A stretch of DNA of 49,594 nt from an uncultured Pseudomonadota bacterium (GTDB lineage Bacteria > Pseudomonadota > Gammaproteobacteria > Burkholderiales > CAIKXV01): assembly GCA_903831455.1 (NCBI GenBank), contig CAIKXV010000074.1, positions 1 to 49,594 on the forward strand, in the 5' to 3' direction. Positions within the stretch are counted from its first letter, which is position 1. Each line of letters opens with the position of its first letter. Below are positions 221 to 14,187 of the stretch, one piece after another. The position numbers were made by a program, and so were the translations under genes. The notes under the pieces are model-generated. The model saw nothing but the letters and a program-made list of their open reading frames with translations, was not told where the DNA came from and made no database searches.

Positions 221-1519
221 TCAGCCGCCCTCGACCCCGCACAGTTCGATGATGGTGGCGGCGTAGACCTTGGTGGCGGCGAGCAGGTCGTCGATGCGCA
301 TCGCCCGGTCCCGCGCCCCGCTGAACGGCTCGACCTGGCGAGGTGGCCCGTAGCACACGGCGGGTATCCCGACCTCGTTGAACACGTTCACATCGCGCCA
401 CATGCTGGTCTCGGCCGCCGGCGGCTGGGGCGGCGCGGAGCCGAACAGCCGGCGGTGGCCCGCCTCGAGCGCCGCGAGCAGCGGCTCGGCGCCCTGGGCG
501 ACATAACCGCGCGAGAACTGGTAGACGCTCGTCCGCGCCTCGATGCCCAGCGCCTGCGCCACGGACGCCACCTCGCGACGGATCGCCTCCGGCTTCTGCC
601 CGGGGAGGATGCGCACATCGAGATACACGTTGCACCAGCCGAGTGCCTCGGAGCCTGCGATCTTCACCACCTGCGCCTTGGGCACGAAGCGCCCGCCCTC
701 GAAATCACGGCTCTGCCGGGCCTGGTAGTCGACCGCCCAGCGCTCCAGCGCCACCACCAGATGGGCTGCCTTCACGAACGCATTGGAGTTCGGCCCCAGT
801 TCGGCCCCGCGTTCGAGGCGCGGCGTGTAGACCCGCTTTCCCGGGACGTGGACCTTGATCGATGCCTCGCCGCACTCGGCGCGAACGATGCCGAAGCCGG
901 AGGTCTCCCCCACCAGGGCGAAGTCGGCCGTCACGCCGCGATCGACCAGCCAGCGCGAACCGAACCCCTCGCCGGGGCAGTCGATGCCCTGCAGCGCATC
1001 GACCGACGGACGCCCGGTCTCGAAGGCCACGCCCGAGAGCCAGAGGTCGCCACGCAACCGCACCCCGGCCCGAACGAGCGCGCGCACCGCGATCATGAAC
1101 GCGCAGAGCTGGCCCTTGTCGTTGATCACGCCCTTGCCGATGATCAGGTCGCCGTCGACCCATGCGCCTTCGATGCGGCGGTCATCGGCGGTCGCCTCCG
1201 GGGCCAGCGCGGGACCGGTATCCAGATGGGCGTTGACGATGAGGCTGTGTCCGCCGGCTCCGGTACCCGGCACATGGCCCACCACGTTGGCGCTGCGATC
1301 GGTGATCGGCTGCAACCACGTCTCGATGCCCGAACGCTCGAGCCATGCACCCACGTGCTCGGCCGCCGGACGCTCGGCCGCATGCGGGCTCGGGAGGTTG
1401 CCCAGTTCGAGGCACAACGCGACGAGATCGTCGCGGCTCGCCTCGATATCGGTCCAGGCCCGATCGATCGCCTGCTCCACGGCAGGCGAACGTCCGGGAC
1501 TATCGGTCGCTTCGGTCAT
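221..1519 (-). CDS. M20-family metallohydrolase (ArgE/DapE-like), divergent active site
   Basis: Predicted 432-residue cytoplasmic amidohydrolase of the M20/ArgE-DapE superfamily, enzymes that use two metals to hydrolyse N-acyl or peptide bonds of small substrates. The start at 1519 is chosen because GGGAGGA precedes it by a few bases; the frame stays open 25 codons further upstream. Visible motifs are NAHLDTGP (His98, Asp100), GKGVINDKGQ (Asp134) and LVGETSG (Glu205). The usual Glu-Glu pair reads FET near residue 167. The final His-x-x-Asp-Glu motif before the conserved IDDL helix reads GARDRAM near residues 401-407, so an expected metal-ligand His is not seen. It lies directly downstream of the Bug receptor at 1604-2623 and probably acts on its ligand or a derivative. 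The substrate is unknown. Confidence 0.85.
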   Translation of the reverse strand: MTEATDSPGRSPAVEQAIDRAWTDIEASRDDLVALCLELGNLPSPHAAERPAAEHVGAWLERSGIETWLQPITDRSANVVGHVPGTGAGGHSLIVNAHLDTGPALAPEATADDRRIEGAWVDGDLIIGKGVINDKGQLCAFMIAVRALVRAGVRLRGDLWLSGVAFETGRPSVDALQGIDCPGEGFGSRWLVDRGVTADFALVGETSGFGIVRAECGEASIKVHVPGKRVYTPRLERGAELGPNSNAFVKAAHLVVALERWAVDYQARQSRDFEGGRFVPKAQVVKIAGSEALGWCNVYLDVRILPGQKPEAIRREVASVAQALGIEARTSVYQFSRGYVAQGAEPLLAALEAGHRRLFGSAPPQPPAAETSMWRDVNVFNEVGIPAVCYGPPRQVEPFSGARDRAMRIDDLLAATKVYAATIIELCGVEGG

Positions 1520-1537
1520 CGGTTCCTCCCGCTCATG

Positions 1538-1562
1538 GCCCCCGCGGGGCTTCGGCGGGGGC
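1538..1562 (-). other. Intercistronic hairpin between Bug receptor and M20 gene
   Basis: GCCCCCGC (1538-1545) pairs perfectly with GCGGGGGC (1555-1562) around a 9-base loop. It lies between the stop of the receptor (1604) and the ribosome binding site of the M20 gene (about 1521-1527), inside what should be a dicistronic minus-strand transcript. Such hairpins often protect the upstream part of a transporter mRNA; that role is inferred here. Confidence 0.55.
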
Positions 1563-1603
1563 TCGCCCGCGCGTGCGGCGACGCCGGCCCCCACCGTTCA
1601 GGG

Positions 1604-2623
1604 TCACTCGGCGCGGATTCCCGCGGCCTTCACCACCTTGCCCCAGCGCGCGATCTCGGCATCGAGGAACGCCGCGAATTCCTTCGGCGTGTTGCCGATC
1701 GGATCCGATCCCGCGGCAATCAGCCGGTCGCGGGTATCGGGCATCGCGAACACCTTCATGATGTCCGAATGCAGCTTGGCGATCACGGCCGGCGGCGTGG
1801 CCCCGGGGGCGAGGATGCCCGCCCAGGTCGAGGCCTCGAAACCCGGCACGCCGGCCTCGCTCATGGTGGGCAGGTCGGGGATGGCCGGCGAGCGCTTGGC
1901 CGAGGCGATCGCCAGGACACGCACCTTGCCGGACTTCGCGTGGGGCAGGACGGCAGGCAGATTGCCGAAGATGAGCGCGATCTGCCCGCCCACGAGGTCA
2001 GCCACCGCAGGGCCGCCCCCCTTGTAGGGGATGTGCACCATGTCCACCTTCGCGAGCAGCTTGAACAGTTCCGCGGCCAGGTGGGTGGAGCCCCCCACCC
2101 CGCCCGACCCGTAGTTGATCTGGCCCGGCCGGGTACGCAGCACCGCGATCAGTTCCTTCACGTTGCGGGCCGGCACGCTGGAGTGGATCGCCAGCACGTT
2201 CGGCGACTCGGCGATGTTCGACACCGGCGTGAAGTCGGAGAGCTGGTACGGAACCTTGGCCTGGAGGCTGAAGTTGACCGGGAAGGCGGAGGTGGCCATC
2301 AGGAGCGTGTAGCCGTCGGGCGCGGCGCGGGCCACCGCCTCGGCGCCGATCATCGTCGAGCCGCCGGGGCGGTTCTCGACCAGTGCGGTCTGCCCCCACA
2401 CGTCGCCGAGTCGCCCGCCGATCAGGCGCGCGATCACGTCGGTGGCTCCCCCCGGGGCCAGCGGCACGATGATGCGCACCGGCTTGACCGGCCACGACTG
2501 CGCGAGCAGCGGCATCGGCAGGCCGCTCGCGACCACGGCCAGCGCCGCGACGATGGCCCGACGCCCGACCCCGCGGACTGGCAACGAACAGGAAGAATCG
2601 GCACGGACTGCATGACCGGACAT
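1604..2623 (-). CDS. Bug-family TTT solute-binding receptor
   Basis: A 339-residue periplasmic binding protein of the Bug (TctC) family. The start at 2623 has GGAGGGG a few bases upstream; the frame is open about 73 codons further. The N-terminus has an extended basic region with GRR, a hydrophobic core and a likely cleavage after LLAQ. Family hallmarks are the first ligand loop VPLAPGGATDVIAR, ENRPGGS, the second loop GSGGVGGSTHLAAELF, and the PYKGGGPA segment. The canonical PGGxxD loop suggests a functional carboxylate receptor. It is followed by the M20 hydrolase gene, probably co-transcribed, and is divergent from the next receptor at 2833. No TctA or TctB membrane subunit is nearby, so it must share a transporter encoded elsewhere. 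Confidence 0.92.
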   Translation of the reverse strand: MSGHAVRADSSCSLPVRGVGRRAIVAALAVVASGLPMPLLAQSWPVKPVRIIVPLAPGGATDVIARLIGGRLGDVWGQTALVENRPGGSTMIGAEAVARAAPDGYTLLMATSAFPVNFSLQAKVPYQLSDFTPVSNIAESPNVLAIHSSVPARNVKELIAVLRTRPGQINYGSGGVGGSTHLAAELFKLLAKVDMVHIPYKGGGPAVADLVGGQIALIFGNLPAVLPHAKSGKVRVLAIASAKRSPAIPDLPTMSEAGVPGFEASTWAGILAPGATPPAVIAKLHSDIMKVFAMPDTRDRLIAAGSDPIGNTPKEFAAFLDAEIARWGKVVKAAGIRAE

Positions 2624-2740
2624 CGGAACCCCTCCGCGTGGACCTGCACTTCGAGCGCGCGGAGTCCCGTGGCTGAAACGCTCCGCACGCGGCACCGTGC
2701 CACCGGCGGCGACCCTCGTCAACCCGTGTGCAGCGCGCGC

Positions 2741-2746
2741 TACACT
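2741..2746 (+). promoter_or_regulatory. Possible -10 element TACACT for the Bug-MaoC-Rid operon
   Basis: TACACT lies 86 bases upstream of the ATG at 2833, in the 209-base divergent gap between two receptors. No convincing TTGACA-like -35 lies 17 bases before it. It resembles the TACAAT, TACCAT and TATACT elements upstream of other genes in this window. Confidence 0.35.
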
Positions 2747-2832
2747 TCGCCCTATCGCAACCCGCACCCCGGTCGATCTCGGCGCGGGCAGACCGTGATC
2801 ACAGCGCGTGACGCGCCCGACGGAGTCCTGCA

Positions 2833-3873
2833 ATGCCTGCAACCGCCCGTGATGCCCTCCCGACGGCCCTGCCGCGCGCAGGCGCCCCCCGCCTCGCGGC
2901 CGCGTGCTCGCTGGTGGCCGCCAGCCTGCTCGCCAGCGCGGTCGGGGCAGCGCAGCCGACCGACGCGGCGAAGCGCTGGCCGGATCGGCCCGTGCGACTG
3001 CTGGTGCCCTACGTGCCGGGCGGGCTCCCCGACACGCTGGCGCGGGTCGTCGGACAGCGGCTCACCGAGACACTGGGCCGCGCGTTCCTCGTCGACAACC
3101 GTCCCGGCGCCGGCGGCGTGATCGGCACCGAACTGGTGGCGCGCGCCCTGCCCGACGGCCATACCCATCTGGTCGCCGACCTCGGCCAGACCGCCATCAC
3201 GCCGGCCATGACGCCGAAGCTGCCCTACGACATCGAGCGCGACTTCGCCCCGGTCAGCCTGCTCGGTACGGCGCCCTTCTTCCTCGCGGTGCATTCGAGC
3301 ACGGGCGTGCAGACGCTGCCGGAACTGGTCGCGTGGGCGAAGGCGCGGGGCGGATCGGCGTCCTACGGCTCCTCGGGCGTGGGCAGCCCGCACCACCTGG
3401 CGATGGAGATCCTGCGCCGCCGGGTCGGCATGGACCTCGTGCACGTACCCTACAAGGGCAGCGGCCAGTCGACGCCGGCACTCGTCTCCGGCGAGGTACC
3501 GATGCTGTTCACGGTGCTGCCGTCCGTGGCGGCGCACGTGAAGGCCGGTACCGTTCGCCTCGTCGCGGTGGCCAGCGCCCAGCGCACGCCCCAGGCTCCC
3601 GAGGTCCCCACCTTCGCCGAACTCGGCGTGAAGGGATTCGTGCTGCTGCCTTCGGTGGCCATGCTGGCGCCAGCCGGGACGCCGCGGGCGATCATCGAGC
3701 GCCTGGCCGCCGAGATCGGACGCGCGGTCCGTCACCCCGAGGCGCAGCAGCGTCTCGCCGCCCTGGGCATCGAGCCGGTCGGCAGCACGCCCGAGGCGTA
3801 TGCGGTCCAGCTAAAAGCCGACATCGCGCTGTTCCGGGCGGCCGTGCAGGCCGCCGGCATCCGGGCCGAATGA
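2833..3873 (+). CDS. Bug-family TTT solute-binding receptor (first gene of operon)
   Basis: A 346-residue periplasmic binding protein of the Bug/TctC family. The signal sequence is long: an N-terminal region with several Arg residues, a hydrophobic core around residues 20-38, and a probable cleavage near AVGAAQ. Mature-domain hallmarks are VPYVPGGLPDTLARVVGQRL, DNRPGAGGVIGTE, YGSSGVGSPHHLAMEIL and HVPYKGSGQS. It starts a plus-strand operon. Its TGA overlaps the ATG of the MaoC gene by four bases, and that gene overlaps a Rid gene in the same way, so receptor and enzymes are likely made together. The ligand is probably a small carboxylic acid handled by these enzymes; its identity cannot be read from the sequence. 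Confidence 0.92.
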   Translation: MPATARDALPTALPRAGAPRLAAACSLVAASLLASAVGAAQPTDAAKRWPDRPVRLLVPYVPGGLPDTLARVVGQRLTETLGRAFLVDNRPGAGGVIGTELVARALPDGHTHLVADLGQTAITPAMTPKLPYDIERDFAPVSLLGTAPFFLAVHSSTGVQTLPELVAWAKARGGSASYGSSGVGSPHHLAMEILRRRVGMDLVHVPYKGSGQSTPALVSGEVPMLFTVLPSVAAHVKAGTVRLVAVASAQRTPQAPEVPTFAELGVKGFVLLPSVAMLAPAGTPRAIIERLAAEIGRAVRHPEAQQRLAALGIEPVGSTPEAYAVQLKADIALFRAAVQAAGIRAE

Positions 3874-4385
3874 GCCGGGACGACGCCATGGCCCCGCACT
3901 CGATCCCCTCGCCGGTCGAACCTGCGGGCCAGCTCTACCTCGAGGATTTCCGGCCCGGCCAGCGGTTCGAAGGACCCACGCGCACGCTCGATCGCGAGGC
4001 CTTCCGGGCCTTCGCGACGCTCACGGGCGACGCGCACCCGATCCACTACGACCCGCAATACGCAGCCCGCAGCCGCTTCGGTCGCCCGGTCGCGCACGGG
4101 CTGCTGCTCGCCGCCTGCGGCGCGCTGGGAGCCACGACGCTGTCCGCTCGGCTGGAGGCCTCGATGATCGCCTTCCTCGAGCAGGGCATGCGATTCCTCG
4201 CCCCGGTGTGCGAGGGCGACACCGTGCGCTGCGAGTTCGAGGTGCAGTCGGCGAGCCCGGGGCGCGACCCGGGCAGGGGCGTGCTACGGCTGGCGGTACG
4301 CCTGCTCGACCCCCTCGGCAAGGTGCTCGCCGAAGGACACCATGCCTACCTGATCGCCACCCGCCCGCGGGAGAATGCCCGATGA
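3870..4385 (+). CDS. MaoC-family hydratase/dehydratase
   Basis: A 171-residue single hot-dog protein of the MaoC/R-specific enoyl-CoA hydratase type, which adds or removes water from acyl-CoA thioesters. The hydratase-2 signature is intact (FATLTGDAHPIHYD), giving the expected catalytic pair Asp54 and His59, followed by the VAHGLLL segment. The start at 3870 is chosen because it forms an ATGA overlap with the receptor stop; a second ATG lies at 3888. Its own stop overlaps the ATG of the Rid gene. It is cytoplasmic and probably acts on a CoA-activated form of the compound captured by the receptor at 2833-3873. No dedicated CoA ligase is in this operon; the CoA-transferase at 8105-9325 could supply the thioester. 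Confidence 0.88.
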   Translation: MSRDDAMAPHSIPSPVEPAGQLYLEDFRPGQRFEGPTRTLDREAFRAFATLTGDAHPIHYDPQYAARSRFGRPVAHGLLLAACGALGATTLSARLEASMIAFLEQGMRFLAPVCEGDTVRCEFEVQSASPGRDPGRGVLRLAVRLLDPLGKVLAEGHHAYLIATRPRENAR

Positions 4386-4792
4386 CCCACCCCTTCACGC
4401 CGGTCACGCCCGCCTCGGGCTGGAACCCGCGCTATACCTTCTCGGCTGCCGTCCGCACCGGCGACCTGCTGTTCATCTCCGGCATGACCGCGGCGGACGA
4501 ACAGGGCCGCATCGTCGGCGAAGGCGACATCGTGCGCCAGACCGAGTACATCTTCGAGAAGATGGGACGGGTGCTGGCGGCCGCGGGACTCGACTTCGGC
4601 CATGTCGTCGAGACCACGGAATACTTCACCACGCTCGACGGCTATGCCCGCACGTCCGAGGTCCGGCGGCGGGTGTTCGGCGCCGGCCCGTATCCCGCCG
4701 CAACCGGCGTGAGGGTGGCCGGACTGATCCGTCCCGGGGCACTCATCGAGATCAAGGCCGTCGCCTGCTACCCGCCGGCCGCGGGACGCTAG
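4382..4792 (+). CDS. Rid-family (YjgF/YER057c/UK114) protein without the RidA arginine
   Basis: A 136-residue member of the Rid superfamily, small trimeric proteins that in classical RidA hydrolyse reactive enamine/imine intermediates. The fold signature is clear: GDLLFISGMTA near residues 27-37 and IEIKAVA near the C-terminus. The family's PAR(S/T)xVxV motif reads PAATGVRV, so Ala107 stands where RidA has its substrate-binding Arg. This places it among the atypical Rid subgroups, often found in degradation operons. It is the third gene of the receptor-MaoC-Rid operon, coupled by an ATGA overlap. Its TAG stop shares bases with the stop of the convergent receptor gene (4789-5763). Confidence 0.88.
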   Translation: MTHPFTPVTPASGWNPRYTFSAAVRTGDLLFISGMTAADEQGRIVGEGDIVRQTEYIFEKMGRVLAAAGLDFGHVVETTEYFTTLDGYARTSEVRRRVFGAGPYPAATGVRVAGLIRPGALIEIKAVACYPPAAGR

Positions 4793-5763
4793 TTGATCGT
4801 CGCACCCGACGCGCGCACGACCTTCTCCCATTTCAGCAGTTCGCGCCGGATCAGTTCGCCCAGGGCTTCGGGCGTACCCGGCTGCGGCTCGTCGATACCC
4901 TGGGCTGCGAGCTGGGTGCGAACCTCGGGCTCGGCCAGCAGCCGACGAAGCTCCGCATTCAGGCGGTCGATGGTCGGGCGCGCAACGCCACCGGTGGTCG
5001 CGATGCCGTACCACGTCGTGGCGACGAATCCCGGGACCCCGCCCTCCTCGACGGTCGGCAGATCGGGCGCGGCCGCGCTGCGCTTCGAACCGGTGACCGC
5101 CAGCGCGCGCACCTTGCCCGCGCGCGCGAGCGGCAGCAGCGTGCCGACGCTGCTCATCACGATCTGGACTTCGCCCGACATCAGGGCGGTGAGGGCCGGC
5201 GGCGCACCCTTGAACGGCACGCGTACCGTCTGGATGCCGGCCAGCGTGTTGAGCAGTTCGGTTGCGAGATGCGTGGGGCTCGAGGTGGCCCCGTAGAACA
5301 GTTCCCCCTTGCGCGCGCGGGCGAGCGCGACCAGCTCCTGCACGCTGCGTACCGGCAACGCGTTGTTGACCGCGAGCAGGTTGGGCGACTCGCCGATCAG
5401 TCCCACCGGCGCGAAGTCGCGGATCGGATCGAAGGGGACGGTGCGATAGAGCGGAGGGTTGATCGCGATGCCCGGCTGCACGAGCAGCAGCGTATGCCCG
5501 TCGGCGGTCGCACGGGCCACCGTCTCCATCGCGATGTTCGCATCCGCACCCGGCCGGTTCTCCACCACGACCGGCTGCCCGAGCAGCGCGCTGTAGCGGG
5601 GCGCGACGATCCGTGCGACCAGATCCACCGGCCCGCCCGGCACGAAGCCGACCACGATGCGCATCGGCCGACTGGGCCAGTTCGGTGCGGGCTGGGCCTG
5701 CGCAGCCGACGCGGCCGCGAGGAGGACGGCGGCGAACGAGGCGGACGGGAAGACAGGTTTCAT
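4789..5763 (-). CDS. Bug-family TTT solute-binding receptor
   Basis: A 324-residue periplasmic Bug/TctC receptor with a compact, clean signal peptide (MKPVFPSASFAAVLLAAASA, cleaved near AQAQ). The start at 5763 has GGAGA upstream. The first ligand loop is VGFVPGGPVDLVARIVAP. The usual NRPGAGGN stretch reads NRPGADAN, and the second loop reads YGATSSPTHLATEL rather than the usual YGSxGxGSxxHLA, so the ligand pocket is probably distinct from its neighbours. It lies 160 bases downstream of another receptor gene on the same strand, with a 7-bp hairpin (5856-5873) between them. It converges on the Rid gene, with the two stop codons sharing CTAG. Confidence 0.92.
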   Translation of the reverse strand: MKPVFPSASFAAVLLAAASAAQAQPAPNWPSRPMRIVVGFVPGGPVDLVARIVAPRYSALLGQPVVVENRPGADANIAMETVARATADGHTLLLVQPGIAINPPLYRTVPFDPIRDFAPVGLIGESPNLLAVNNALPVRSVQELVALARARKGELFYGATSSPTHLATELLNTLAGIQTVRVPFKGAPPALTALMSGEVQIVMSSVGTLLPLARAGKVRALAVTGSKRSAAAPDLPTVEEGGVPGFVATTWYGIATTGGVARPTIDRLNAELRRLLAEPEVRTQLAAQGIDEPQPGTPEALGELIRRELLKWEKVVRASGATIN

Positions 5764-5855
5764 GGGGTTCTCCGGTCGGGAAGACAGGCCACCGTCGACC
5801 GCAGCAAGGCCGCGACGGAGACCGGCAAGGCGAGGGTTCGGCGCGCGCCCGACCA

Positions 5856-5873
5856 CGGCGCAAGCCTGCGCCG
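5856..5873 (-). other. Hairpin between two tandem Bug receptor genes
   Basis: CGGCGCA (5856-5862) pairs with TGCGCCG (5867-5873) around a 4-base loop, in the 160-base gap between the receptor genes at 5924-6943 and 4789-5763. There is no T-tract, so intrinsic termination is not supported. It may be an RNA-processing or stability element, or chance in GC-rich DNA. Confidence 0.35.
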
Positions 5874-5923
5874 GATGCGGGCGATCGCCAGCCGTGCCCA
5901 GGCCTCGGGGGATCGTTCCATTT

Positions 5924-6943
5924 TCAATTGGGCTCGGCGCCCACGCGCGGCACCACCTCCCGCCACAGGGCAATCTCGGTTGCGACGCGTCGGGCGAAGG
6001 CGGCCGGAGGCGTGAGCGGCGAACTCGCGCCCTGCGAGGCGAACAGTTCGCGCGGACGCGGACGCTGCGCCGCCTGCGCGATGACCGCGTGCATGCGCTC
6101 GAGCAGGCTGGCGGGTATGCCCGAGGGGCCGATCAGGCCGAACCAGATCGGCATGTCGTAGTCGGGGAACCCCGACTCGGCGAACGTCGGCACGTCGGGC
6201 AGCAGCGGATTGCGCTCGCGACCGGTGACCGCCAGCGCGCGCATGCGACCGGCTTTCACCGCGTTGACCGCGCTGGCGATGCTGGAGGTGCCGACGTCGA
6301 CACGCCCCGCGACGATCTCGCCGATCGACGCGGCGACACCCTTGAACGGGACGTGGACCATGCGCAGCTTGTTCATGTCGATGAACAGTTCCGCGGCCAG
6401 GTGCGAGGACGTGCCGTTGCCGCCGGTCGCGAAGGTGATCTCCCCCGCCCTCGCCCGGGCAAGGGCGACGAGATCGCGCGGCGAGCGCGCGGGGAAGTCG
6501 TTGCGCGCGAACCACAGCGTGGGCGCCTCGGCCACCAGCGTGACCGGCTGGAAATCGCGCAGGGGATCGAACGGCAGGTTCCGCCGATACAGGGCCGGCG
6601 CGATCGAGAACGAGTTCTCGGTCATCAGCAGGGTATGCCCGTCGGGCGCCGACTTCGCGACCAGCGCCGCGCCGATGGTGGTCCCCGCGCCGGGCCGGTT
6701 GTCGACGATCGCCGGCTGGCCGCTCGCCTCGGTGATCTCCCCGGCCAGTGCGCGCCCGACCACGTCGGTGAACGAGCCCGGCACCACGGGCACGATCACG
6801 CGCATCGGCCGGGTCGGCCATGACGGCTGCGCCGCCGCGACGGTGGCCCCGAGCGCGAGGAAGGCGACGATCGCCCGTCGCGCACCGCGTACGGAGCCTC
6901 GGCGCGCGAGGTCATACAATCGGCACTGCAGCCTTCTGCTCAT
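5924..6943 (-). CDS. Bug-family TTT solute-binding receptor with altered ligand loop
   Basis: A 339-residue periplasmic receptor. Of two possible ATG codons, 6943 is preferred because GGAGGG sits about five bases before it; 6964 is the alternative. The N-terminal region is Arg-rich, followed by a hydrophobic stretch (AIVAFLALGATVAAAQ). The rest is a typical Bug fold: DNRPGAGTTIGAALVAK, ATGGNGTSSHLAAELF and VPFKGVAAS. The first ligand loop is VPVVPGSFTDVVGRALAG, where Ser replaces the second Gly of PGG and Gly replaces the Ala of the DxxAR segment seen in its paralogues. The gene precedes another receptor on the same strand and is divergent from the MaoC-fold gene at 6980. Confidence 0.92.
   Translation of the reverse strand: MSRRLQCRLYDLARRGSVRGARRAIVAFLALGATVAAAQPSWPTRPMRVIVPVVPGSFTDVVGRALAGEITEASGQPAIVDNRPGAGTTIGAALVAKSAPDGHTLLMTENSFSIAPALYRRNLPFDPLRDFQPVTLVAEAPTLWFARNDFPARSPRDLVALARARAGEITFATGGNGTSSHLAAELFIDMNKLRMVHVPFKGVAASIGEIVAGRVDVGTSSIASAVNAVKAGRMRALAVTGRERNPLLPDVPTFAESGFPDYDMPIWFGLIGPSGIPASLLERMHAVIAQAAQRPRPRELFASQGASSPLTPPAAFARRVATEIALWREVVPRVGAEPN
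6915..6920 (+). promoter_or_regulatory. Possible -10 element TACAAT for the MaoC-fold gene at 6980
   Basis: TACAAT lies 59 bases upstream of the ATG at 6980 and inside the 5' end of the divergent receptor gene. No -35 consensus is seen. It belongs to a recurring set of TAnnnT elements upstream of genes in this window. Confidence 0.35.
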
Positions 6944-6979
6944 CGATCCCTCCCCCAACGACAATATCCACCGCCCACC

Positions 6980-7444
6980 ATGTCATCCTACTACGAGGAC
7001 TTCACCGTCGGTGCGCGCTACCCGACCTATGGACGCACGATCACCGAGGGCGACCTCTCGCTCTTCTGCGCGCTGGTGGGCTACCACGTGCCGCTGTTCA
7101 TCGACGAGGAGTTCGCGCGCAGGACCGAGCACGGCGGTCGCATCTGCCCCAGCCACCTGATCATGTCCTACTCGACCGGCATGACCGAGAGCCTGTTCCG
7201 GACCTCGGTGATCGGACTGCTGGGCCTGGACGGTGGACGCTTCTTCCGGCCGGTGCGCATCGGCGACACCATCCGCACCGACGTGGAAGTCCTGTCCAAG
7301 CGCGAGACCTCGAAACCGGATCGCGGGCTCGTGGTGTTCCGCGACCTCGTGTTCAACCAGCGCGACGAACTCGTCTTCCAGATGGACAAGACCGCGCTGA
7401 TCCGCACCCGCGCAAGCCTCGCGCCCTCGCAGACGGCCTGCTGA
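6980..7444 (+). CDS. MaoC-fold protein lacking the hydratase dyad
   Basis: A 154-residue hot-dog protein recognisably of the MaoC family: ITEGDLSLFCALVG, FIDEEFARR, ICPSHLIMSYSTGM, and a C-terminal FQMDKTALIR strand. In the position of the hydratase motif (GDxNPxHxD) it reads GYHVPLFID, so Tyr35 and Phe40 occupy the places of the catalytic Asp and His. Ordinary R-hydratase chemistry is therefore doubtful. It may be a thioesterase-like, binding or partner subunit, or use other residues. It is a single gene on the plus strand, divergent from a Bug receptor and convergent with the cupin gene, about 200 bases away. Confidence 0.82.
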   Translation: MSSYYEDFTVGARYPTYGRTITEGDLSLFCALVGYHVPLFIDEEFARRTEHGGRICPSHLIMSYSTGMTESLFRTSVIGLLGLDGGRFFRPVRIGDTIRTDVEVLSKRETSKPDRGLVVFRDLVFNQRDELVFQMDKTALIRTRASLAPSQTAC

Positions 7445-7647
7445 GCCGCGCCCGTGCGGCAGCCCGTCCGCTGCGCGAGCCGGGCTCGAGGCAGGCGTCG
7501 CCGCAGGGTCCTCCCCGGCCGGGAACGACGCCGCCCCACGAGCGATCGGGTGCGCGCCGAACGCCTTGCCTCGCCCCACCGCGCGCGAGCACGTCGCCTT
7601 GCGCGCGCGATCGAGACCGCAGGCCCCGGGGGATCGTCGTCCTTCGC

Positions 7648-8073
7648 TCAGGCAGGCCGGAACCCGCCCTGCGCCGGTAGCGGCGGGCTGTAGATCACCA
7701 GGACCCGGGCGGGTCCGTCCACCGCCCGCGCCCCGTGCACCAGCCCCGGGGGGATCCGGATCACGCTGCCGGGCGGACAGCGCGTCGGAGCCACACCCGG
7801 CTCGCTGTGTTCGAGCACGCCCTCGAGCACCATCACGATCTGCCATGCGCTGTCGTGCGAATGCGGGTGGGCGGCGCCACCCAGCGCAACGTCGCCGAGC
7901 ACCATCTCGAGACCCGCGCCGAGGCCAGCCTCGACCAGTCGCCGGTTGACCGTGCCGCCATGGCCGGGCGGCGAATACGGCACCCGATCGTCGATGTGCA
8001 CGATCCGCGGGGCCCGGGGATCGCCCGAGGCGTCCGCGGACGGCACGGTTGCCTGCGGCTTTTCGTCGTTCAT
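7648..8073 (-). CDS. Cupin-domain protein
   Basis: A 141-residue single-domain cupin. The metal-site motifs are visible: HPHSHDSAWQIVMVLEG (several His plus a downstream Glu), then PGSVIRIPPGLVHGA containing the second-motif His. Small cupins of this kind act as dioxygenases, isomerases or ligand sensors, and the precise reaction cannot be told here. The start at 8073 gives a normal length; the frame extends upstream into the CoA-transferase region without support. The gene follows the CoA-transferase by 31 bases on the same strand, so the two are probably one operon. A role in carboxylate or dicarbonyl breakdown is inferred from that context only. Confidence 0.8.
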   Translation of the reverse strand: MNDEKPQATVPSADASGDPRAPRIVHIDDRVPYSPPGHGGTVNRRLVEAGLGAGLEMVLGDVALGGAAHPHSHDSAWQIVMVLEGVLEHSEPGVAPTRCPPGSVIRIPPGLVHGARAVDGPARVLVIYSPPLPAQGGFRPA

Positions 8074-8104
8074 TTCCGAGCCGTCCCTGTGGACATGGAG
8101 GCGG

Positions 8105-9325
8105 TCACCCGCGGGCCGAGGCCTCACCGCCGCGGGCTGCGCCGCAGGCCAGCAGCGCGGCGATCGCCTCGACGCTGTAGCCGGCTTCGGCGAGGACCGC
8201 CTCGGTGTGTTCACCCAGCCGGGGGGCGCTGACCGGATGGCGGGCGGGCTCGCCGTCGAAGAAACCGGGCGAGGCGAGCTGGCGTACCGGCCCCAGCCCC
8301 GGTGCGTCCGCCCATGACAAGGCACCGCTGCGCTCGAGCGCAGGGTCGGCCGCCACCTCCGGCAGGCGGGCCACCGGCATTGCCGGCATGCGCAACTCGC
8401 GCGCGAGGGCGATCCACTCGTCGACGGTGCGGGTATGCGCGACCGATTCGATCACGTCGTAGAGTTCGTGGAAGCGCGTGCCTCGAACCGCCGGGTCGGT
8501 GACACGGGGGTCGATGACCATGTCCTCGCGCCCCACCGCGGCGAAGAATCGCGCCCACTGCTCGCTGCTGTACGGGGTCATCGAGACATGGCCATCGCGC
8601 GCGCGGTAGATGCGGCGACCATCGCGGGTGACGCGCGCGTAGCCGACGGGGCCGGTGGCCGGCTGGTAGGTCGCGCCCTGCAGATGCTCGACCAGGCAGA
8701 AGCTGGCAAGCGTGTCGTACATCGGCACGTCGATGACGCCCCCCTCGCCGGTGGCGCGCTGGCGCACCAGCGCCGCCAGCATCGCCGTGGCGAGCGCGAG
8801 GCCCGACACCTTGTCCGCGATCAGGCTGGGTACGAGCCGGGGGGTGCCATCGGCGTCCCCGTTGAGGTCCGCCATGCCCACCGCGCACTGGATCACGTCG
8901 TCGATGGCGGGCGCATCCGCGAGCGGATGCTGCTCGGAGAAGCCGGTCGCCGCGCAGTAGAGGATGCGCGGGTTGAGCGCCCGCACCGCCTCGGGGGAGA
9001 ACCCCAGCCGCGCCATCGGCTCCCGGCGCACGTTGTGCACCAGCAGGTCGGCGCCCCGCAGCAGCGCCTCGAGCGCAGCGCGCCCCTCCGGCTTGCGGAT
9101 GTCGAGCACGACCGACCGCTTGCCGCGGTTCAGGTTCATGAACACCGGCCCCATGCCGCGCTCGGGCGCGGGTCCGGCGTATCGCATGATGTCGCCGTCG
9201 GGCACTTCGACCTTCACGACATCGGCGCCATAGTCGGCGAGGACCTGGGTCGCGTAGGGGCCGAACAGGACCGAGGTCATGTCGATCACCCGCACGCCCG
9301 CCAGCAGTTGCTGCGCAGTGCTCAT
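8105..9325 (-). CDS. Class III CoA-transferase (CaiB/BaiF family)
   Basis: A 406-residue member of the CaiB/BaiF (formyl-CoA transferase type) family, which moves CoA between organic acids through an enzyme-linked anhydride. Typical features are the N-terminal GVRVIDMTSVLFGPYATQVL, DYGADVVKVE, NRGKRSVVLD, and the segment APAIDDVIQCAVG, whose Asp142 aligns with the family's catalytic aspartate. The start at 9325 fits the family's usual beginning; an upstream in-frame extension of 25 codons lacks homologous features. It is first in a probable two-gene operon with the cupin. It may activate acids imported through the Bug receptors in this region, giving CoA esters for the MaoC hydratase; that link is inferred. 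Confidence 0.92.
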   Translation of the reverse strand: MSTAQQLLAGVRVIDMTSVLFGPYATQVLADYGADVVKVEVPDGDIMRYAGPAPERGMGPVFMNLNRGKRSVVLDIRKPEGRAALEALLRGADLLVHNVRREPMARLGFSPEAVRALNPRILYCAATGFSEQHPLADAPAIDDVIQCAVGMADLNGDADGTPRLVPSLIADKVSGLALATAMLAALVRQRATGEGGVIDVPMYDTLASFCLVEHLQGATYQPATGPVGYARVTRDGRRIYRARDGHVSMTPYSSEQWARFFAAVGREDMVIDPRVTDPAVRGTRFHELYDVIESVAHTRTVDEWIALARELRMPAMPVARLPEVAADPALERSGALSWADAPGLGPVRQLASPGFFDGEPARHPVSAPRLGEHTEAVLAEAGYSVEAIAALLACGAARGGEASARG

Positions 9326-9654
9326 GGAATTTCCGCGCCCGCAGGGGAGCGCGCCGTCACGAAGGATCGTCTCGGCGGAATGGTAGCGCAGGCGCCGCAT
9401 GCGGGCCGGCGCGCCGCCGGACCCGCGTGCGGCGCCCGGAGCGGACTGCGCCGCGAGCGGACACCGCCCGGGGGCGCCGCGCGACCCCGATGCCGGCGCG
9501 CAGCGGCCTGGGGACCACGCGGTGCAAGGGCAGGTGCATCGCGGTATCGTCGGGCATCCGCTCGGGCGCTCGCCCGCGGGTACCGCGACGGGCCGGGAGC
9601 ACCGCCACGACCGATCGCATCGCAGCGCCCGAACGCCCTCCGCCTACCCTCCCG
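9326..9654. promoter_or_regulatory. Divergent intergenic region: promoter-like element and nested palindrome
   Basis: No supported gene lies in these 329 bases between the CoA-transferase and the DUF2238 gene. On the minus strand TACCAT at 9380-9385 is a -10 candidate for the CoA-transferase. Nearer the plus-strand gene, GCGGTA (9541-9546) and TACCGC (9591-9596) form the outer arms of a palindrome, with CGGGCG (9573-9578) and CGCCCG (9581-9586) inside it. Confidence 0.45.
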
Positions 9655-10290
9655 ATGCACGCCGACCGCCAGCGCCCCAGCCCGACCGAGATCGCCTGCT
9701 GGATCGCGGTGGCGACCACCTGCCTGTGGTCCACGATCGATCCCCATGATCGGTTGACCTGGTGGCTGGAGGCGCTGCCCTCGGTCGCGGTGCTGGTCCT
9801 GCTGCCCGCGTTGTTCGCGAGGTTCAGGTTCACCCCGCTCGCCACCGTGCTGATCGCCGCCCATGCGATCGTGCTGCTGGTCGGCGCGCACTACACCTAC
9901 GCGGAGGTGCCGCTCGGCAACTGGGCGCGCGACACCTTCGACCTCTCGCGCAACCACTACGACCGGTTCGGCCACGTGATGCAGGGGTTCACCCCGGCGA
10001 TCGTCGCGCGCGAGGTGCTCGCCCGCCGCTCGCCGCTGCACGGCAGTCGATGGCTGCCGTTCCTCGCGATCTGCTTCTGCCTGGCCTTTTCGGCCTTCTA
10101 CGAACTCATCGAGTGGTGGGTGGCGATCTCCACCGGCGACGACGCGGTGGCCTTCCTCGCCACCCAGGGCGACGTCTGGGACACCCAATGGGACATGTTC
10201 CTCGCGCTGGCTGGCGCATGCCTGTCGATCGCACTGTTCTCCCGCCTGCACGACCGCCAGCTCGCGCAACTGGCGCCTCGAGGCGCATAG
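9655..10290 (+). CDS. DUF2238 (YjdF-type) integral membrane protein
   Basis: A 211-residue polytopic inner-membrane protein. Hydrophobic segments occur at about residues 14-26, 40-57, 60-77, 135-155 and 185-200. The stretch [20 protein letters not shown] and the later [11 protein letters not shown] are characteristic of the DUF2238/YjdF family, whose function is not established. Histidine and acidic residues within membrane segments suggest a possible metal or proton role, but that is speculation. The start at 9655 is the first ATG giving a family-like N-terminus; much longer in-frame extensions lack membrane character. A long imperfect hairpin follows the stop. Confidence 0.82.
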
Positions 10291-10298
10291 GACACACC

Positions 10299-10331
10299 GT
10301 GCGCAGGCACCCCGGGGTGGCCTCGGCGCAC
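10299..10331 (+). terminator. Imperfect hairpin after the DUF2238 gene
   Basis: GTGCGC (10299-10304) pairs with GCGCAC (10326-10331), AGGC (10305-10308) pairs with GCCT (10320-10323), and ACCCC faces GGGGT at the tip, with small bulges. It begins nine bases after the stop codon. It lacks a T-run, so it is only a terminator candidate. Confidence 0.4.
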
Positions 10332-10372
10332 GCCGGACGGGAACGACCGCGCCGCCCCCAGGGCATCCGCGC

Positions 10373-10403
10373 GTAGTAACATTACGGGTTTTCCGTCAAC
10401 TAC
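10373..10403 (+). promoter_or_regulatory. AT-rich island with hairpin upstream of lysC
   Basis: This is the only clearly AT-rich patch in the gap before lysC. It contains TAACAT (10377-10382) as a -10 candidate, and it can fold: GTAGT (10373-10377) with ACTAC (10399-10403), and ACGG (10384-10387) with CCGT (10393-10396) around a GTTTT loop. It lies about 80-110 bases before the lysC ATG. The promoter role is inferred. Confidence 0.4.
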
Positions 10404-10480
10404 TTGCCCGCGGCCTGCCGGCACGACGGTCACCGCGCCCCGGGCGCGGCGAGGCACCGGTCCGGCGCGCGCTCCCGAAG

Positions 10481-11710
10481 ATGGCATTGATCGTCCAGAA
10501 GTACGGCGGGACCTCGGTCGGCTCGCCCGAGCGCATCCGCAACGTCGCGCGCCGCGTTGCGCGCTGGAAATCGCAGGGCCACGACCTGGTCGTCGTCGTC
10601 TCGGCCATGTCCGGCGAGACCAACCGGCTGATCGCGCTCGCCCGCGAAGTCCAGGGTGAACCGGACCCGCGCGAACTCGACCAGATGGTGTCCACCGGCG
10701 AGCAGGTCACGATCGGGCTGCTCGCAATGGCGCTGAAGGACATCGGCGTGGACGCCCGCAGCTACACCGGCGGGCAGGTCCGCATCCTCACCGACAACGC
10801 GTACACCAAGGCCCGCATCCTGTCGATCGACGAGCACAACATGCGTGCCGACCTCTCGGCGGGGCGGGTGGTCGTCGTCGCCGGCTTCCAGGGGATCGAC
10901 GCCGCGGGCAACGTCACCACGCTGGGCCGCGGCGGCTCGGATACCACCGGCGTGGCGCTGGCCGCGGCCCTGCGCGCGGACGAGTGCCAGATCTACACCG
11001 ACGTCGATGGCGTCTACACCACCGACCCGCGCATCGTCCCCAATGCCCGGCGCCTGCGGACGGTCACCTTCGAGGAGATGCTGGAGATGGCCAGCCTCGG
11101 CTCGAAGGTGCTGCAGATCCGCTCGGTGGAGTTCGCCGGCAAGTACCGCGTCAAGCTGCGGGTGCTCTCTTCGTTCCAGGACGAGGGCGAGGGCACGCTG
11201 ATCACCTTCGAAGAGGACGAGCACATGGAACAGGCGATCATCTCGGGCATCGCGTTCAACCGCGACGAGGCCAAGATCACGGTGCAGGGGGTCCCCGACC
11301 GGCCGGGCATCGCGTACCAGATCCTCGGCCCGGTGGCCGACGCGAACATCGACGTCGACATGATCGTGCAGAACGCCGGCGTGCACGGCCTGACCGATTT
11401 CTCCTTCACGGTGCCGAGGGGCGACTTCGCCCGCGCCAGCCGGTTGATCGAGGAGGTGCGCCAGCACATCGGCGCGCGCGAGGTCATCGGCGACGAGCGC
11501 ATCGCGAAGGTATCCATCGTCGGCGTGGGCATGCGATCGCACTGCGGCATCGCCAGCAAGGCGTTCCGCGCGCTCTCCGAGGAGGGCATCAACATCCAGA
11601 TGATCTCCACCTCGGAGATCAAGATCTCGGTCGTGCTCGACGAGAAGTACCTCGAACTCGCGGTGCGGGTGCTGCACGACGCGTTCGAACTCGATCGCGA
11701 ACCGGTCTGA
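10481..11710 (+). CDS. lysC: Aspartate kinase
   Basis: A 409-residue aspartokinase that phosphorylates L-aspartate as the first step toward lysine, diaminopimelate, methionine and threonine. The N-terminal kinase domain has [13 protein letters not shown] (from about residue 5), [16 protein letters not shown] and the DGVYTTDPR segment. Two C-terminal ACT domains follow (about 265-335 and 345-409), the usual sites of lysine/threonine feedback control. Length and architecture match the monofunctional, single-chain class. An internal ATG at 11225 is preceded by AGAGGA and could initiate a separate regulatory beta chain, as known for some aspartokinases. The ATG at 10481 has no strong ribosome binding site. 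Confidence 0.97.
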
Positions 11711-11718
11711 CCCGCACC

Positions 11719-11736
11719 GGCTCCGGGCGCGGAGCC
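11719..11736 (+). terminator. Hairpin after lysC
   Basis: GGCTCCG (11719-11725) pairs with CGGAGCC (11730-11736) around a GGCG loop, nine bases after the lysC stop and between it and the convergent receptor gene. It has no T-tract, so it is only a candidate terminator or mRNA-end structure. Confidence 0.4.
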
Positions 11737-11822
11737 CGGCCTGCCGCCCTGGCGGGACGCCAGCCGACGAGCGTCCCGGATGCGCGAGTCGCGCGGGTGT
11801 CGCGAGGGCCGGCCTGCCCGGC

Positions 11823-12812
11823 TCAGTTCACTTCGGCCTTCGCGCCAGACTGCACGATCACCGGCGCCCAGCGCCGGATCTCCTCGCGCAGGAAGCGGCG
11901 GAAGTCGTCCGGCGAGCCCGGCAACGGTTCGCCGCCGACGTTGCGGATGCGCTCGGCCGTCTCGGGCGTCTGCAGCGAGCGAACGGCCTCGGCATTCAGT
12001 CGGGCGACCACCGCCGACGGCGTCCCCGCGGGCACCATGATGCCCCCGAAACCGACCGCCTCGAAGGCCACCCCCTCTTCGCGGAAGGTCGGGATGTTCG
12101 ACAGCGCGCTCGACCGTTTCGCGCTGGCCATCGCCAGCCCGCGGACCTTGCCCGCCTGGATCTGCGCCATCGCCCCGGGGACGTTGCCGAACATCACGTC
12201 GGTCTGCCCGGAGATGAGGCCGGTCAGCGCCTGCGGGCTACCCGGGTAGGGCACGTGGGTCGCGGCGAAGCGGTTCTGGGTGCGGAAGAGTTCCATTGCC
12301 AGGTGCTGCGGGCTACCGATGCCCAGCGAGCCGTAGTTGAAACCACCGGGCCGGCTCCTCGCCTGCTCCAGGAATTCCTTGAGCGAGTTGATCGGCGAGC
12401 GTGCCGACACCAGCAGCACGTTCGGGAACTGGGCATAGAGCGCCACCGGCGCGAAGTCGCGCTCGGTGTCGAACGGCAGCTTGGGTCGCAGGTTCAGATG
12501 GAAGGCGAACGGCGTGCTCACGAACACCACCGTGTAGCCATCGGCCGGGGCCTTGGCGGCCAGTTCGTAGGCGATGAGTCCGCTCGCGCCCGGGCGATTG
12601 TCGTAGACCAGCGGGCGCCCCAGTCCATCGGCCATCCGCTCGCCCACCACGCGCGCGAGGATGTCGGACACCCCTCCCGCGGGGAAATCGATCACCAGGC
12701 GGATCGGCCGGTTCGGATACGCCTGGGCGGCCGCGCCCGTGGCGAAGCCCGCCCACGCAGCGGCGGCGATCAGAAGGCAACGGATCGGCGAACGCAGGAA
12801 CTCGGACACCAT
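11823..12812 (-). CDS. Bug-family TTT solute-binding receptor
   Basis: A 329-residue periplasmic receptor with a clear signal peptide: MVSEFLRSPIRC, then a hydrophobic core, with probable cleavage after GAAAQA. Ligand-loop motifs are IDFPAGGVSDILARVVGER, DNRPGASGLIAYELAAK, YGSLGIGSPQHLAMELF and HVPYPGSPQALTG. The start at 12812 has GGAG upstream; the open frame continues far upstream across the tRNA genes but is not coding there. It converges on lysC and is divergent from a Rid-family gene, repeating the Bug-Rid association seen at 2833-4792. Its ligand is unknown and no transporter membrane subunits are present nearby. Confidence 0.92.
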   Translation of the reverse strand: MVSEFLRSPIRCLLIAAAAWAGFATGAAAQAYPNRPIRLVIDFPAGGVSDILARVVGERMADGLGRPLVYDNRPGASGLIAYELAAKAPADGYTVVFVSTPFAFHLNLRPKLPFDTERDFAPVALYAQFPNVLLVSARSPINSLKEFLEQARSRPGGFNYGSLGIGSPQHLAMELFRTQNRFAATHVPYPGSPQALTGLISGQTDVMFGNVPGAMAQIQAGKVRGLAMASAKRSSALSNIPTFREEGVAFEAVGFGGIMVPAGTPSAVVARLNAEAVRSLQTPETAERIRNVGGEPLPGSPDDFRRFLREEIRRWAPVIVQSGAKAEVN

Positions 12813-12968
12813 GGCAACTCCGGCAGGCGAGGGTGGCCAGCATGATCGCTCCCGGTCCGTTCGGCAAGGAGGTCCCGGCCGCTGTGCTACCGTGACGGCC
12901 CGGGCCGGCGCCCGGCGGGTCGCCAGTCCCGGCCGCTCGCACGACCGGCTTGCACGCACGGAGAGCGC

Positions 12969-13370
12969 ATGAGCACGATCGACAAGCAGTTGATCTTCCC
13001 CGAAGGACTGTCCCGCCCCACCGGCGTCTGGACCACCGTGACGACTGCCCGACCGGGACGCCTCGTGTTCGTGTCGGGCCTCACGGCGAAGGACGCGTCC
13101 GGCGTGGTGGTCGGCAAGGACGACATCCGCGTCCAGACCGTGCAGGTCTGCGAGAACCTCAAGCTCGCGATGCAATCCGCCGGGGGGTCGCTGCGCGACA
13201 TCATGCGGGTGGACGTGTTCATCAAGGACATGGCCCACTTCAAGGTGATCCACGAGGTCCGCGGGCGTTATTTCGACGTCGAACCGCCCGCCTCCACGAT
13301 GGTGGCCGTCTCCGCCTTCACCCACCCGGACATGCTGATCGAGATCAACGCGATCGCCGTGCTTCCCTGA
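12969..13370 (+). CDS. Rid-family protein without the RidA arginine
   Basis: A 133-residue Rid superfamily protein. Fold markers are GRLVFVSGLTAKDASG near residues 30-45 and LIEINAIAVLP at the end. The PAR(S/T) motif of RidA reads PASTMVAV, with Ser109 in the place of the key Arg, so classical imine deaminase activity is not expected. The ATG at 12969 has GGAGAG just upstream. It is divergent from the Bug receptor at 11823-12812 and was probably acquired with it. It is not closely similar to the other Rid protein at 4382-4792. It may process an unstable amino or carbonyl intermediate; the substrate is unknown. Confidence 0.87.
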   Translation: MSTIDKQLIFPEGLSRPTGVWTTVTTARPGRLVFVSGLTAKDASGVVVGKDDIRVQTVQVCENLKLAMQSAGGSLRDIMRVDVFIKDMAHFKVIHEVRGRYFDVEPPASTMVAVSAFTHPDMLIEINAIAVLP

Positions 13371-13572
13371 CCCGCGCCGACAGGACGGGTCGACGCCGCG
13401 ATCGCCCGTTCGGCGCCGCCCGCCCGCCCCCATCACGGGGCGATGCAAGCACCCGGCCGTAGCGCCGGGCGGGCCCGCCGTCCTGCCCGGCCGGCGCCCG
13501 GAGCGGCGGGGTCGTACGCGGCTGCGGGCACGTCCAGCGGGCATGTCCTCGCGCGGGCGACGATCCGGGCGG

Positions 13573-13578
13573 TATACT
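13573..13578 (+). promoter_or_regulatory. -10 element TATACT for tRNA-Ser
   Basis: TATACT ends ten bases before the first base of the mature tRNA-Ser, the spacing expected for a tRNA promoter. No clear -35 box is seen in the GC-rich upstream DNA. Confidence 0.6.
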
Positions 13579-13588
13579 CCGCACCCGT

Positions 13589-13682
13589 GGAGAGATGGCC
13601 GAGAGGTCGAAGGCGCTCCCCTGCTAAGGGAGTATACGGGCCAAAACCTGTATCGAGGGTTCGAATCCCTCTCTCTCCGCCA
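13589..13682 (+). tRNA. tRNA-Ser (anticodon GCU)
   Basis: A 94-nt class II tRNA with acceptor stem GGAGAGA/TCTCTCC, discriminator G and encoded CCA. The anticodon arm CTCCC-CTGCTAA-GGGAG gives anticodon GCT at 13623-13625, reading AGC/AGU serine codons. The long variable arm and the GGTTCGAATCC T-arm are clear. Confidence 0.97.
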
Positions 13683-13691
13683 GTTCGCCTG

Positions 13692-13697
13692 TATACT
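13692..13697 (+). promoter_or_regulatory. -10 element TATACT for tRNA-Arg
   Basis: TATACT ends nine bases before the tRNA-Arg 5' end, in the 24-base gap after tRNA-Ser, suggesting the second tRNA has its own start as well as read-through from the first. Confidence 0.5.
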
Positions 13698-13706
13698 CGG
13701 CGGCAC

Positions 13707-13783
13707 GCGCCTGTAGCTCAGTTGGATAGAGTACTTGGCTACGAACCAAGGGGTCGTGGGTTCAAATCCTGCCAGGCGCGCCA
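13707..13783 (+). tRNA. tRNA-Arg (anticodon ACG)
   Basis: A 77-nt tRNA with acceptor GCGCCTG/CAGGCGC, discriminator G and encoded CCA. The anticodon arm CTTGG-CTACGAA-CCAAG places ACG at 13741-13743; A34 would be edited to inosine to read CGU/CGC/CGA. The T-arm contains GGTTCAAATCC. Confidence 0.97.
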
Positions 13784-13790
13784 GTTCCAG

Positions 13791-13825
13791 CAGCCGGTCG
13801 GCCCTCGAGGCCGGCCGGCTGTTTT
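13791..13825 (+). terminator. Rho-independent terminator after tRNA-Arg
   Basis: A 13-bp stem, CAGCCGGTCGGCC (13791-13803) against GGCCGGCCGGCTG (13809-13821) with one G-U pair, a CTCGA loop, then TTTT (13822-13825). It starts eight bases after the tRNA CCA end. It is the only hairpin in the window with a proper T-tract. Confidence 0.9.
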
Positions 13826-14187
13826 CACTTGCGGGGCATGGTTCGAGCCAGGGCCCGGCCAGCCGCGCCGCCTGATGGGCTCCGCCCCGGCCGGGAAGGC
13901 CTGAACCGCCCTCGGCCGCTTCGCCCCTCCCGTGTGCCATGGCCCGCCGGGCACGGCCGATCGCCGACCGCGCTGCACGGTCGCCCGTCCCTCGGTGTCC
14001 GTGCATTCCGGGGGCGGCGCGTCGCACGCGTCGGTGATAGCCTCGCGGGCCGGGGAGGCGGCCCGGAAACCGGTCCGTCGCCGGGCTGGCGAGCCGGATC
14101 GCCATGGCGGCGCCATCGATCCGGCCTGGCAGCCCACGGCCCCCGCCCCCCCTGCGGTACCCTTGCATCCCGTTCCAGCGATCCCCC
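13826..14187. other. Gap between tRNA operon and tartrate dehydrogenase-like gene
   Basis: These 362 bases contain no supported gene or RNA. The open frames present are GC-bias frames without family features. TACCCT at 14158-14163, 25 bases before the ATG at 14188, is a weak -10 candidate. No repeat of the tRNA-Arg 3' end was noticed by eye. Confidence 0.4.

Follow-up and report, generated by a model that had tools for sequence, protein, structure and literature searches.

The window analysed here, a 49,594-nucleotide contig (CAIKXV010000074.1, assembly GCA_903831455.1) from an uncultured bacterium of the Burkholderiales, carries three successive plus-strand genes for a TctC-type periplasmic receptor (Bug1), a MaoC hydratase (MaoC1) and a Rid-fold protein (Rid1). 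Across the genomes compared, the deep association looks to be that of MaoC with Rid, which form the conserved core of the unit, while Bug looks like a lineage-specific uptake part. With about even confidence, this core, often joined by a second MaoC-like protein (MaoC2) and an enzyme that activates acids with coenzyme A (CoA), is interpreted as one catabolic unit for an organic acid, comprising uptake, activation, hydration and Rid steps; confidence in the chemistry is below that in the unit itself. The three genes and their junctions, with Pfam scores that all exceed the cut-offs, are as follows.

2833..3873, plus strand: Bug1, TctC-type periplasmic receptor, 346 amino acids (PF03401, TctC, 213.6 bits); an orthologue lies 5' of MaoC1 in all eight other genomes of the genus that have MaoC1
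3870..3873, plus strand: ATGA stop/start overlap of Bug1 and MaoC1, kept in eight of nine genus loci
3870..4385, plus strand: MaoC1, hotdog hydratase, 171 amino acids, with an Asp54/His59 dyad in the motif GDAHPIH (PF01575, MaoC_dehydratas, 69.6 bits)
4382..4385, plus strand: ATGA stop/start overlap of MaoC1 and Rid1, kept in three of nine genus loci
4382..4792, plus strand: Rid1, Rid-fold protein, 136 amino acids, with Ala107 at the position of Arg105 of RidA and with Glu123 kept (PF01042, Ribonuc_L-PSP, 83.5 bits)

The open reading frames (ORFs) read from the window and the Pfam matches agree with an initial annotation of the locus, which had described the three ORFs and both four-base overlaps; its word "fused" was a misnomer, because the genes overlap and the proteins are separate. 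The gene layout suggests that translation of the three genes may be coupled.

Association of MaoC with Rid

A scan of a one-genome-per-species collection with an alignment of MaoC1 returned 257 relatives, and the locus counts given here refer to the best 80 of these. Rid is encoded within 10 kb in 48 of the 80 loci, a set that favours the association, as the scan's ten query rows were all drawn from Rid-bearing loci. Close co-directional MaoC-Rid pairs number 37, and 16 of them overlap by 4 nt; gene starts were set heuristically, and those of MaoC1 are mis-set in L058 and in L106, the latter outside the 37. MaoC2 lies within 10 kb in 33 of the 80 loci, every time together with Rid. According to record labels, the Rid-bearing loci span Beta- and Alphaproteobacteria, Rokubacteria, Thermodesulfobacteriota and Chloroflexota, several of them being metagenome bins with doubtful names (Bordetella parapertussis and Akkermansia, for example). 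The remaining 32 loci, many of them from Rokubacteria and Bradyrhizobium, gave no Rid match. At three loci outside the genus (L103, L105 and L122), genes for MaoC1, Rid, a CaiB-type CoA transferase, MaoC2, a cupin and Bug are in line on one strand.

The association also appears when approached from Rid. A profile (A5) of 41 module Rids, built from the window and the MaoC-seeded loci, was used in searches that scored at most ten candidates per genome. In the order (399 genomes), scores of at least 177 bits were reached at 15 places, spread over 14 genomes of which nine belong to the genus, and the next Rid scored at most 121 bits; MaoC adjoins Rid at all 15 places (14 loci plus the second G064 place, L051). 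Among 385 genomes of another class there were two clade-level places, in two genomes of one genus, both with MaoC1, MaoC2 and a PaaK-like ligase beside Rid, and among 398 genomes drawn over the phylum no clade member was found except the window's own. MaoC is therefore adjacent at 17 of 17 clade places in the order and other-class searches, and no clade Rid without MaoC turned up in the 399 and 385 genomes. Lower-scoring Rids served as controls (L165-L183 and L186-L205, 39 loci but 38 places, L186 and L204 being one array; the lowest-scoring Rids of these genomes fall outside the set), and MaoC lies within 1.5 kb at only two of the 38 places, both beside triple Rid arrays (L172; L186/L204). 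In a maximum-likelihood tree, a branch supported at 100/99 separates the 48 module Rid rows from 14 other Rids of the window's genome, among them the Rid2 protein discussed below; many of the non-module Rids form long branches.

The contrast between 17 of 17 clade places and two of 38 controls, with gene order and neighbours that vary, makes it very improbable that the overlaps are ordinary operon compaction with no common pathway for the three proteins. Compact bacterial operons often have four-base ATGA overlaps, Bug genes are abundant enough to be expected as neighbours by chance, and in L050 a Bug gene overlaps that of a Rid-less MaoC relative, all of which would fit such compaction.

Triple Rid-domain arrays occur in the window's genome and elsewhere (L149:2987-4252, L146:2946-4151, L172:1501-2628, L186:733-1884); those with a nearby MaoC (L172 and L186) are perhaps a second Rid-MaoC type.

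Within the genus, MaoC1 has a close ortholog (57-69% identity) in nine of 11 genomes, the window's own included; the genomes without it are G002 (84% complete), which holds a MaoC2 ortholog close to a contig end, and G007 (83% complete). The order Bug1-MaoC1-Rid1 is found on a single strand in all nine, more than expected by chance, and the triad thus extends beyond this strain. The two overlaps that the initial annotation had emphasized differ in this respect: the first is stable within the genus but the second is not, being replaced by an 11-nt gap with AGGAG in five loci and by a 63-nt gap in one. In G005 the Bug1 ortholog is split across two frames (L032:8416-9331) and may be broken or misassembled.

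The wider cluster of the genus comprises the triad and five further genes, of which those for MaoC2, the cupin and the CoA transferase had been overlooked when the locus was first read as a triad.

4789..5763, minus strand: BugB, TctC receptor, convergent with Rid1, start codon inferred (Pfam, synteny)
5924..6964, minus strand: BugC, TctC receptor adjoining MaoC2 (TctC, 206.9 bits; synteny)
6980..7444, plus strand: MaoC2, MaoC-like subunit, 154 amino acids, with Tyr35 and Phe40 instead of the dyad (Pfam; Tyr and Phe in 33 of 33 relatives)
7648..8076, minus strand: small cupin protein, start codon inferred; adjoins CaiB in eight genus loci (L032-L038 and L042) and belongs to the same cluster in L103, L105 and L122
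8105..9325, minus strand: CaiB-type class III CoA transferase, start codon inferred (CoA_transf_3, 341.7 bits; synteny)

MaoC2 is better conserved than MaoC1 in the aligned genus loci (82-89% versus 57-63% identity to the window's copy). CaiB and the cupin lie on the Bug1 side in seven genus loci (L032-L038) and on the MaoC2 side in the window and in G001 (L042), so the content of the cluster is kept and its order is variable. A scan of positions 2500-9500 found no promoter or terminator, such scans being of little use in GC-rich DNA. Next to the cluster in the window (221-2842) are two minus-strand ORFs, for an M20-type peptidase and a further Bug (BugA); the peptidase query had no match in the genus loci scanned.

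Residues of Rid1 and of the two MaoC proteins

The AlphaFold2 model of Rid1 is a confident Rid fold (predicted local distance difference test score, 93.7), and its nearest structures by Foldseek are those of RidA and RutC (template modelling score 0.88 to RutC). In RidA, Arg105 binds the substrate carboxylate, and its mutation nearly abolishes imine hydrolysis, according to passages of PMC4433059 and PMC8113886. Ala107 of Rid1 aligns with this arginine of structure 1xrg, and among 48 module Rids the position holds Ala in 24, Ser in 23 and an unreadable residue (X) in one. The initial annotation had given Rid1 the clean-up of a reactive imine-like product, a role made unlikely by the absence of the arginine from 47 of the 48 proteins, the other being unreadable. 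Glu123 (the equivalent of Glu120), Arg117 and Tyr88 are conserved in 48 of 48, and Thr36, Gln53, Tyr88, Arg95, Arg117 and Glu123 are invariant or almost so in 41 relatives of Rid1. Rid1 therefore has the fold and the glutamate of a RidA-type imine deaminase without its arginine, a combination that also describes the Rid4-Rid7 subfamilies but is not specific to them, as other Rids of the window's genome share the loss.

That Rid1 is nevertheless an ordinary enamine or imine deaminase, cleaning up a nitrogen-containing intermediate of the pathway, is distinctly unlikely given the Ala or Ser in all 47 readable sequences. The Rid fold and the universal glutamate would suit such an activity, as would the ammonium transporter ORF that L105 carries roughly 1 kb 5' of MaoC1. 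RutC and AmnE are examples of Rid deaminases that serve catabolic pathways, according to passages of PMC8113886 and PMC6742747, and according to the relevant part of PMC4433059 about 10% of RidA proteins have Ser in place of the arginine, with their activity left open; the deaminase reading is disfavoured all the same. Somewhat less unlikely is a non-enzymatic Rid1, a structural or regulatory partner that would stabilize the MaoC hydratase or sense the acyl-CoA of the pathway. The lost arginine and the tight coupling to MaoC1 are consistent with such a role, and a precedent is the DUF35 domain of ChsH1-ChsH2-Ltp2, which serves partner association rather than activity (PMC11321319, in part). 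Against it, the near-invariant polar residues listed above point to a conserved active cleft.

The Asp-His dyad of MaoC1 is present in 80 of 80 relatives, partly by construction, one of the two MaoC search patterns containing it. MaoC2 has Tyr and Phe at the dyad positions in every one of its 33 relatives, which is not by construction. MaoC1 thus carries the catalytic residues of a MaoC hydratase and MaoC2 does not, and the co-encoding of a catalytic and a dyad-less MaoC, the latter found only with MaoC1 and Rid, is the arrangement of a heteromeric MaoC hydratase. In the example of ChsH1-ChsH2, as described in part of PMC11321319, one subunit has the dyad, the dyad-less other binds the substrate, and the aldolase that follows is required to overcome an unfavourable hydration equilibrium.

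A structure search matched MaoC2 to beta-methylmalyl-CoA dehydratase (8hgn), and its best NCBIfam match is the RipB/Ich equivalog, at 61.3 bits (31.6 bits for MaoC1) against a cut-off of 340; CaiB matches succinyl-CoA:mesaconate CoA-transferase at 178.4 bits against a cut-off of 700. These matches raise the idea that the unit is an itaconate- or mesaconate-type pathway for a C5 dicarboxylate, with a CoA transferase, a MaoC hydratase and a lyase. With both scores far under the curated cut-offs, that pathway was considered and is unsupported. The scans of module genes brought up no lyase of the CitE/HpcH type, a family at which no search was aimed, and the itaconate and mesaconate pathways are not known to include a Rid protein; this identity for the unit is improbable.

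The proposed pathway and its neighbouring genes

In 44 of 49 module loci, the window included, a CoA-activating enzyme (CaiB transferase, PaaK-like ligase, or AMP-forming or NDP-forming acyl-CoA synthetase) is encoded no more than 8 kb from MaoC1, versus nine of 32 Rid-less MaoC loci. Together with the observed gene order, overlaps, domains, residues, co-occurrence and Rid clade, this suggests a pathway whose order of steps we infer as follows. Bug1, or an unrelated transport system in other lineages, would bind the acid outside the cytoplasm, and the CaiB transferase, or elsewhere a CoA ligase, would form its CoA thioester. By analogy with ChsH1-ChsH2, the two MaoC proteins might form a heteromeric enoyl-CoA hydratase, with the Asp-His dyad coming from MaoC1 and the other half of the active-site groove from MaoC2. 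Rid1 might then consume the hydrated CoA ester, as such or as a tautomer, and so pull an unfavourable hydration forward, in the manner of the aldolase in that system. A CoA-ester substrate would fit with the lost arginine, because a thioester has no free carboxylate at that end. It is a tentative possibility, and no stronger, that the Rid clade without the arginine represents a new type of enzyme acting on CoA thioesters. Coupled to a MaoC hydratase with one catalytic and one inert subunit, it would be the shared core of an organic-acid pathway not described before, in Proteobacteria and, going by contig titles, in Rokubacteria, Thermodesulfobacteriota and Chloroflexota.

Several points weigh against this interpretation. 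The loss of the arginine argues against imine hydrolysis but taken alone does not point to a CoA-ester substrate, because the loss is common in other Rids here: the arginine is present in just three of 18 aligned stretches with a residue at that position among the other Rids of the window's genome, and in none of 21 stretches of non-clade Rids aligned elsewhere, which have Ser, Thr, Ala, Asp, Cys or Val instead. The acyl chain may carry a free carboxylate at another position, and CoA may be too large for the Rid cleft. As for the genomic evidence, the MaoC-seeded searches had already brought up 15 of the 17 clade places, the new ones being those in G212 (L164) and G1103 (L185), and the association counts were taken across loci irrespective of kinship. 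The ligase models used in counting CoA-activating enzymes were built from ORFs of the same loci, and such enzymes are common in catabolic regions generally. No MaoC2 was found in 15 of the 48 Rid-bearing loci (two of them short contigs), and at four of the 15 (L063, L082, L110 and L127) a different small MaoC-like ORF that keeps GDxxxIH lies just upstream. The idea of an inert MaoC in every module was rejected on account of these four loci.

Further enzymes are encoded in some of the modules. A thiamine pyrophosphate (TPP) enzyme of the NCBIfam PRK08327 type (tested on L104) and an aldehyde dehydrogenase (tested on L082) may serve a later decarboxylation; the regions concerned are L082:13043-18214, L104:5603-7333 and L109:13906-17129. 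Seven modules of alphaproteobacterial type have a class II aldolase/adducin protein (F29) upstream of MaoC1 (L095:8599-9399, for example), and six of these seven have a TauE-type exporter (F36) downstream.

The transport genes near the MaoC-Rid pair differ by lineage. Bug is one of them; the others are TctB with TctA in Microvirga (L082), a DctM-type protein with an NMT1-like receptor in Rokubacteria (L088), a Peripla_BP_6 receptor with a BPD_transp_2 permease in Caldovatus (L060), and SBP_bac_5 in a marine alphaproteobacterial bin (L096). Among 81 loci, a co-directional Bug gene just 5' of MaoC1, together with Rid, occurs only in the genus and in L097, and Bug1 is not the best match of the L097 protein, which belongs to the TctC family. 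Bug thus looks like an interchangeable uptake part, and the single ligand-specific pathway that the initial annotation had drawn from the triad survives in part: MaoC-Rid recurs with CoA-activating and transport genes, but a fixed place for Bug is unsupported. Two MaoC1 relatives without a Rid match have a Bug gene directly upstream (L046, 1504-2873; L050, 554-1947), in L050 with a 4-nt ATGA overlap, so that the coupling of Bug to MaoC is independent of Rid.

Bug1 itself has an N-terminus that is hydrophobic as judged by eye, and a structure search matched it to Bug27 at 7.7e-57. The window's genome has at least 150 TctC/Bug genes (150 of 371 candidates were scored, all above the cut-off), and Bug neighbours are therefore expected for many genes. 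A stretch of about 12.6 kb in the window (1604-14189) has five TctC/Bug genes, and the receptor expansion in the genome as a whole is extreme; expansions to many copies per genome are known (PMC5994714, in part).

A second Bug-Rid pair at 11823-13370 had been taken as a repeat of the association. The pair exists, with Rid2 on the plus strand at 12969-13370 and a TctC domain in a minus-strand ORF at 14189-11823, the two being divergent and their domains non-overlapping. Rid2 falls outside the module Rid clade in the tree and has Ser at the Arg105 position. The divergent Bug is kept in three of the four other genus genomes that have a Rid2 ortholog, and of 13 further Rid regions of the genome, one of which gave no match to the Rid model, six have a Bug gene within about 0.6 kb of Rid. 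The pair was rejected as a second copy of the unit because Rid2 is outside the clade and the genome is rich in Bug genes.

Comparison with known systems

All of the protein families have been described before, but no description of a fixed unit of MaoC with an arginine-less Rid and an inert MaoC was found in the open-licence literature, as judged from listings. Plasmid records, considered as a source of named substrates, held no close relatives of the triad, MaoC2 or Rid1 (best identity below 60% for MaoC2 and Rid1). The module points to an undescribed route of acid degradation over several lineages, some of them cultured, such as, going by record titles, Microvirga flocculans, Pigmentiphaga kullae and Ramlibacter.

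The unit resembles ChsH1-ChsH2 (with Ltp2) and HadAB/HadBC in that a MaoC with the dyad is encoded near a dyad-less MaoC, and it resembles ChsH1-ChsH2 also in the link to a partner, which in ChsH1-ChsH2 takes the product (PMC11321319, in part). It differs from ChsH1-ChsH2 in that the companion is a Rid protein and not an aldolase, and that neither MaoC1 nor MaoC2 has a DUF35 domain by Pfam. With the itaconate (RipABC) and mesaconate pathways it shares a CoA transferase and a MaoC hydratase, whereas Rid and an inert MaoC are added here and the NCBIfam matches are far under cut-off. Bug1 is like the orphan TctC/Bug receptors of betaproteobacteria in its family and in the many copies per genome (PMC5994714, in part), but differs from them in that its gene overlaps a hydratase gene in this genus.

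Rid1 shares with the deaminases RidA, RutC and AmnE the fold and the placement of a Rid in a catabolic gene cluster, and is set apart from them by the missing catalytic arginine of the module Rids. It also resembles Rid4-Rid7, which have the Rid fold, keep the glutamate and lack the arginine that hydrolyses imines, and whose function is described as unknown in a passage of PMC4433059 that says they "remain mysterious". The module Rids differ from these in having Ala or Ser at the arginine position, a conserved stretch around Gly109-Arg117 and a tie to MaoC. An arginine-less Rid clade locked to a CoA-ester hydratase offers a concrete and testable context for these mysterious subfamilies.

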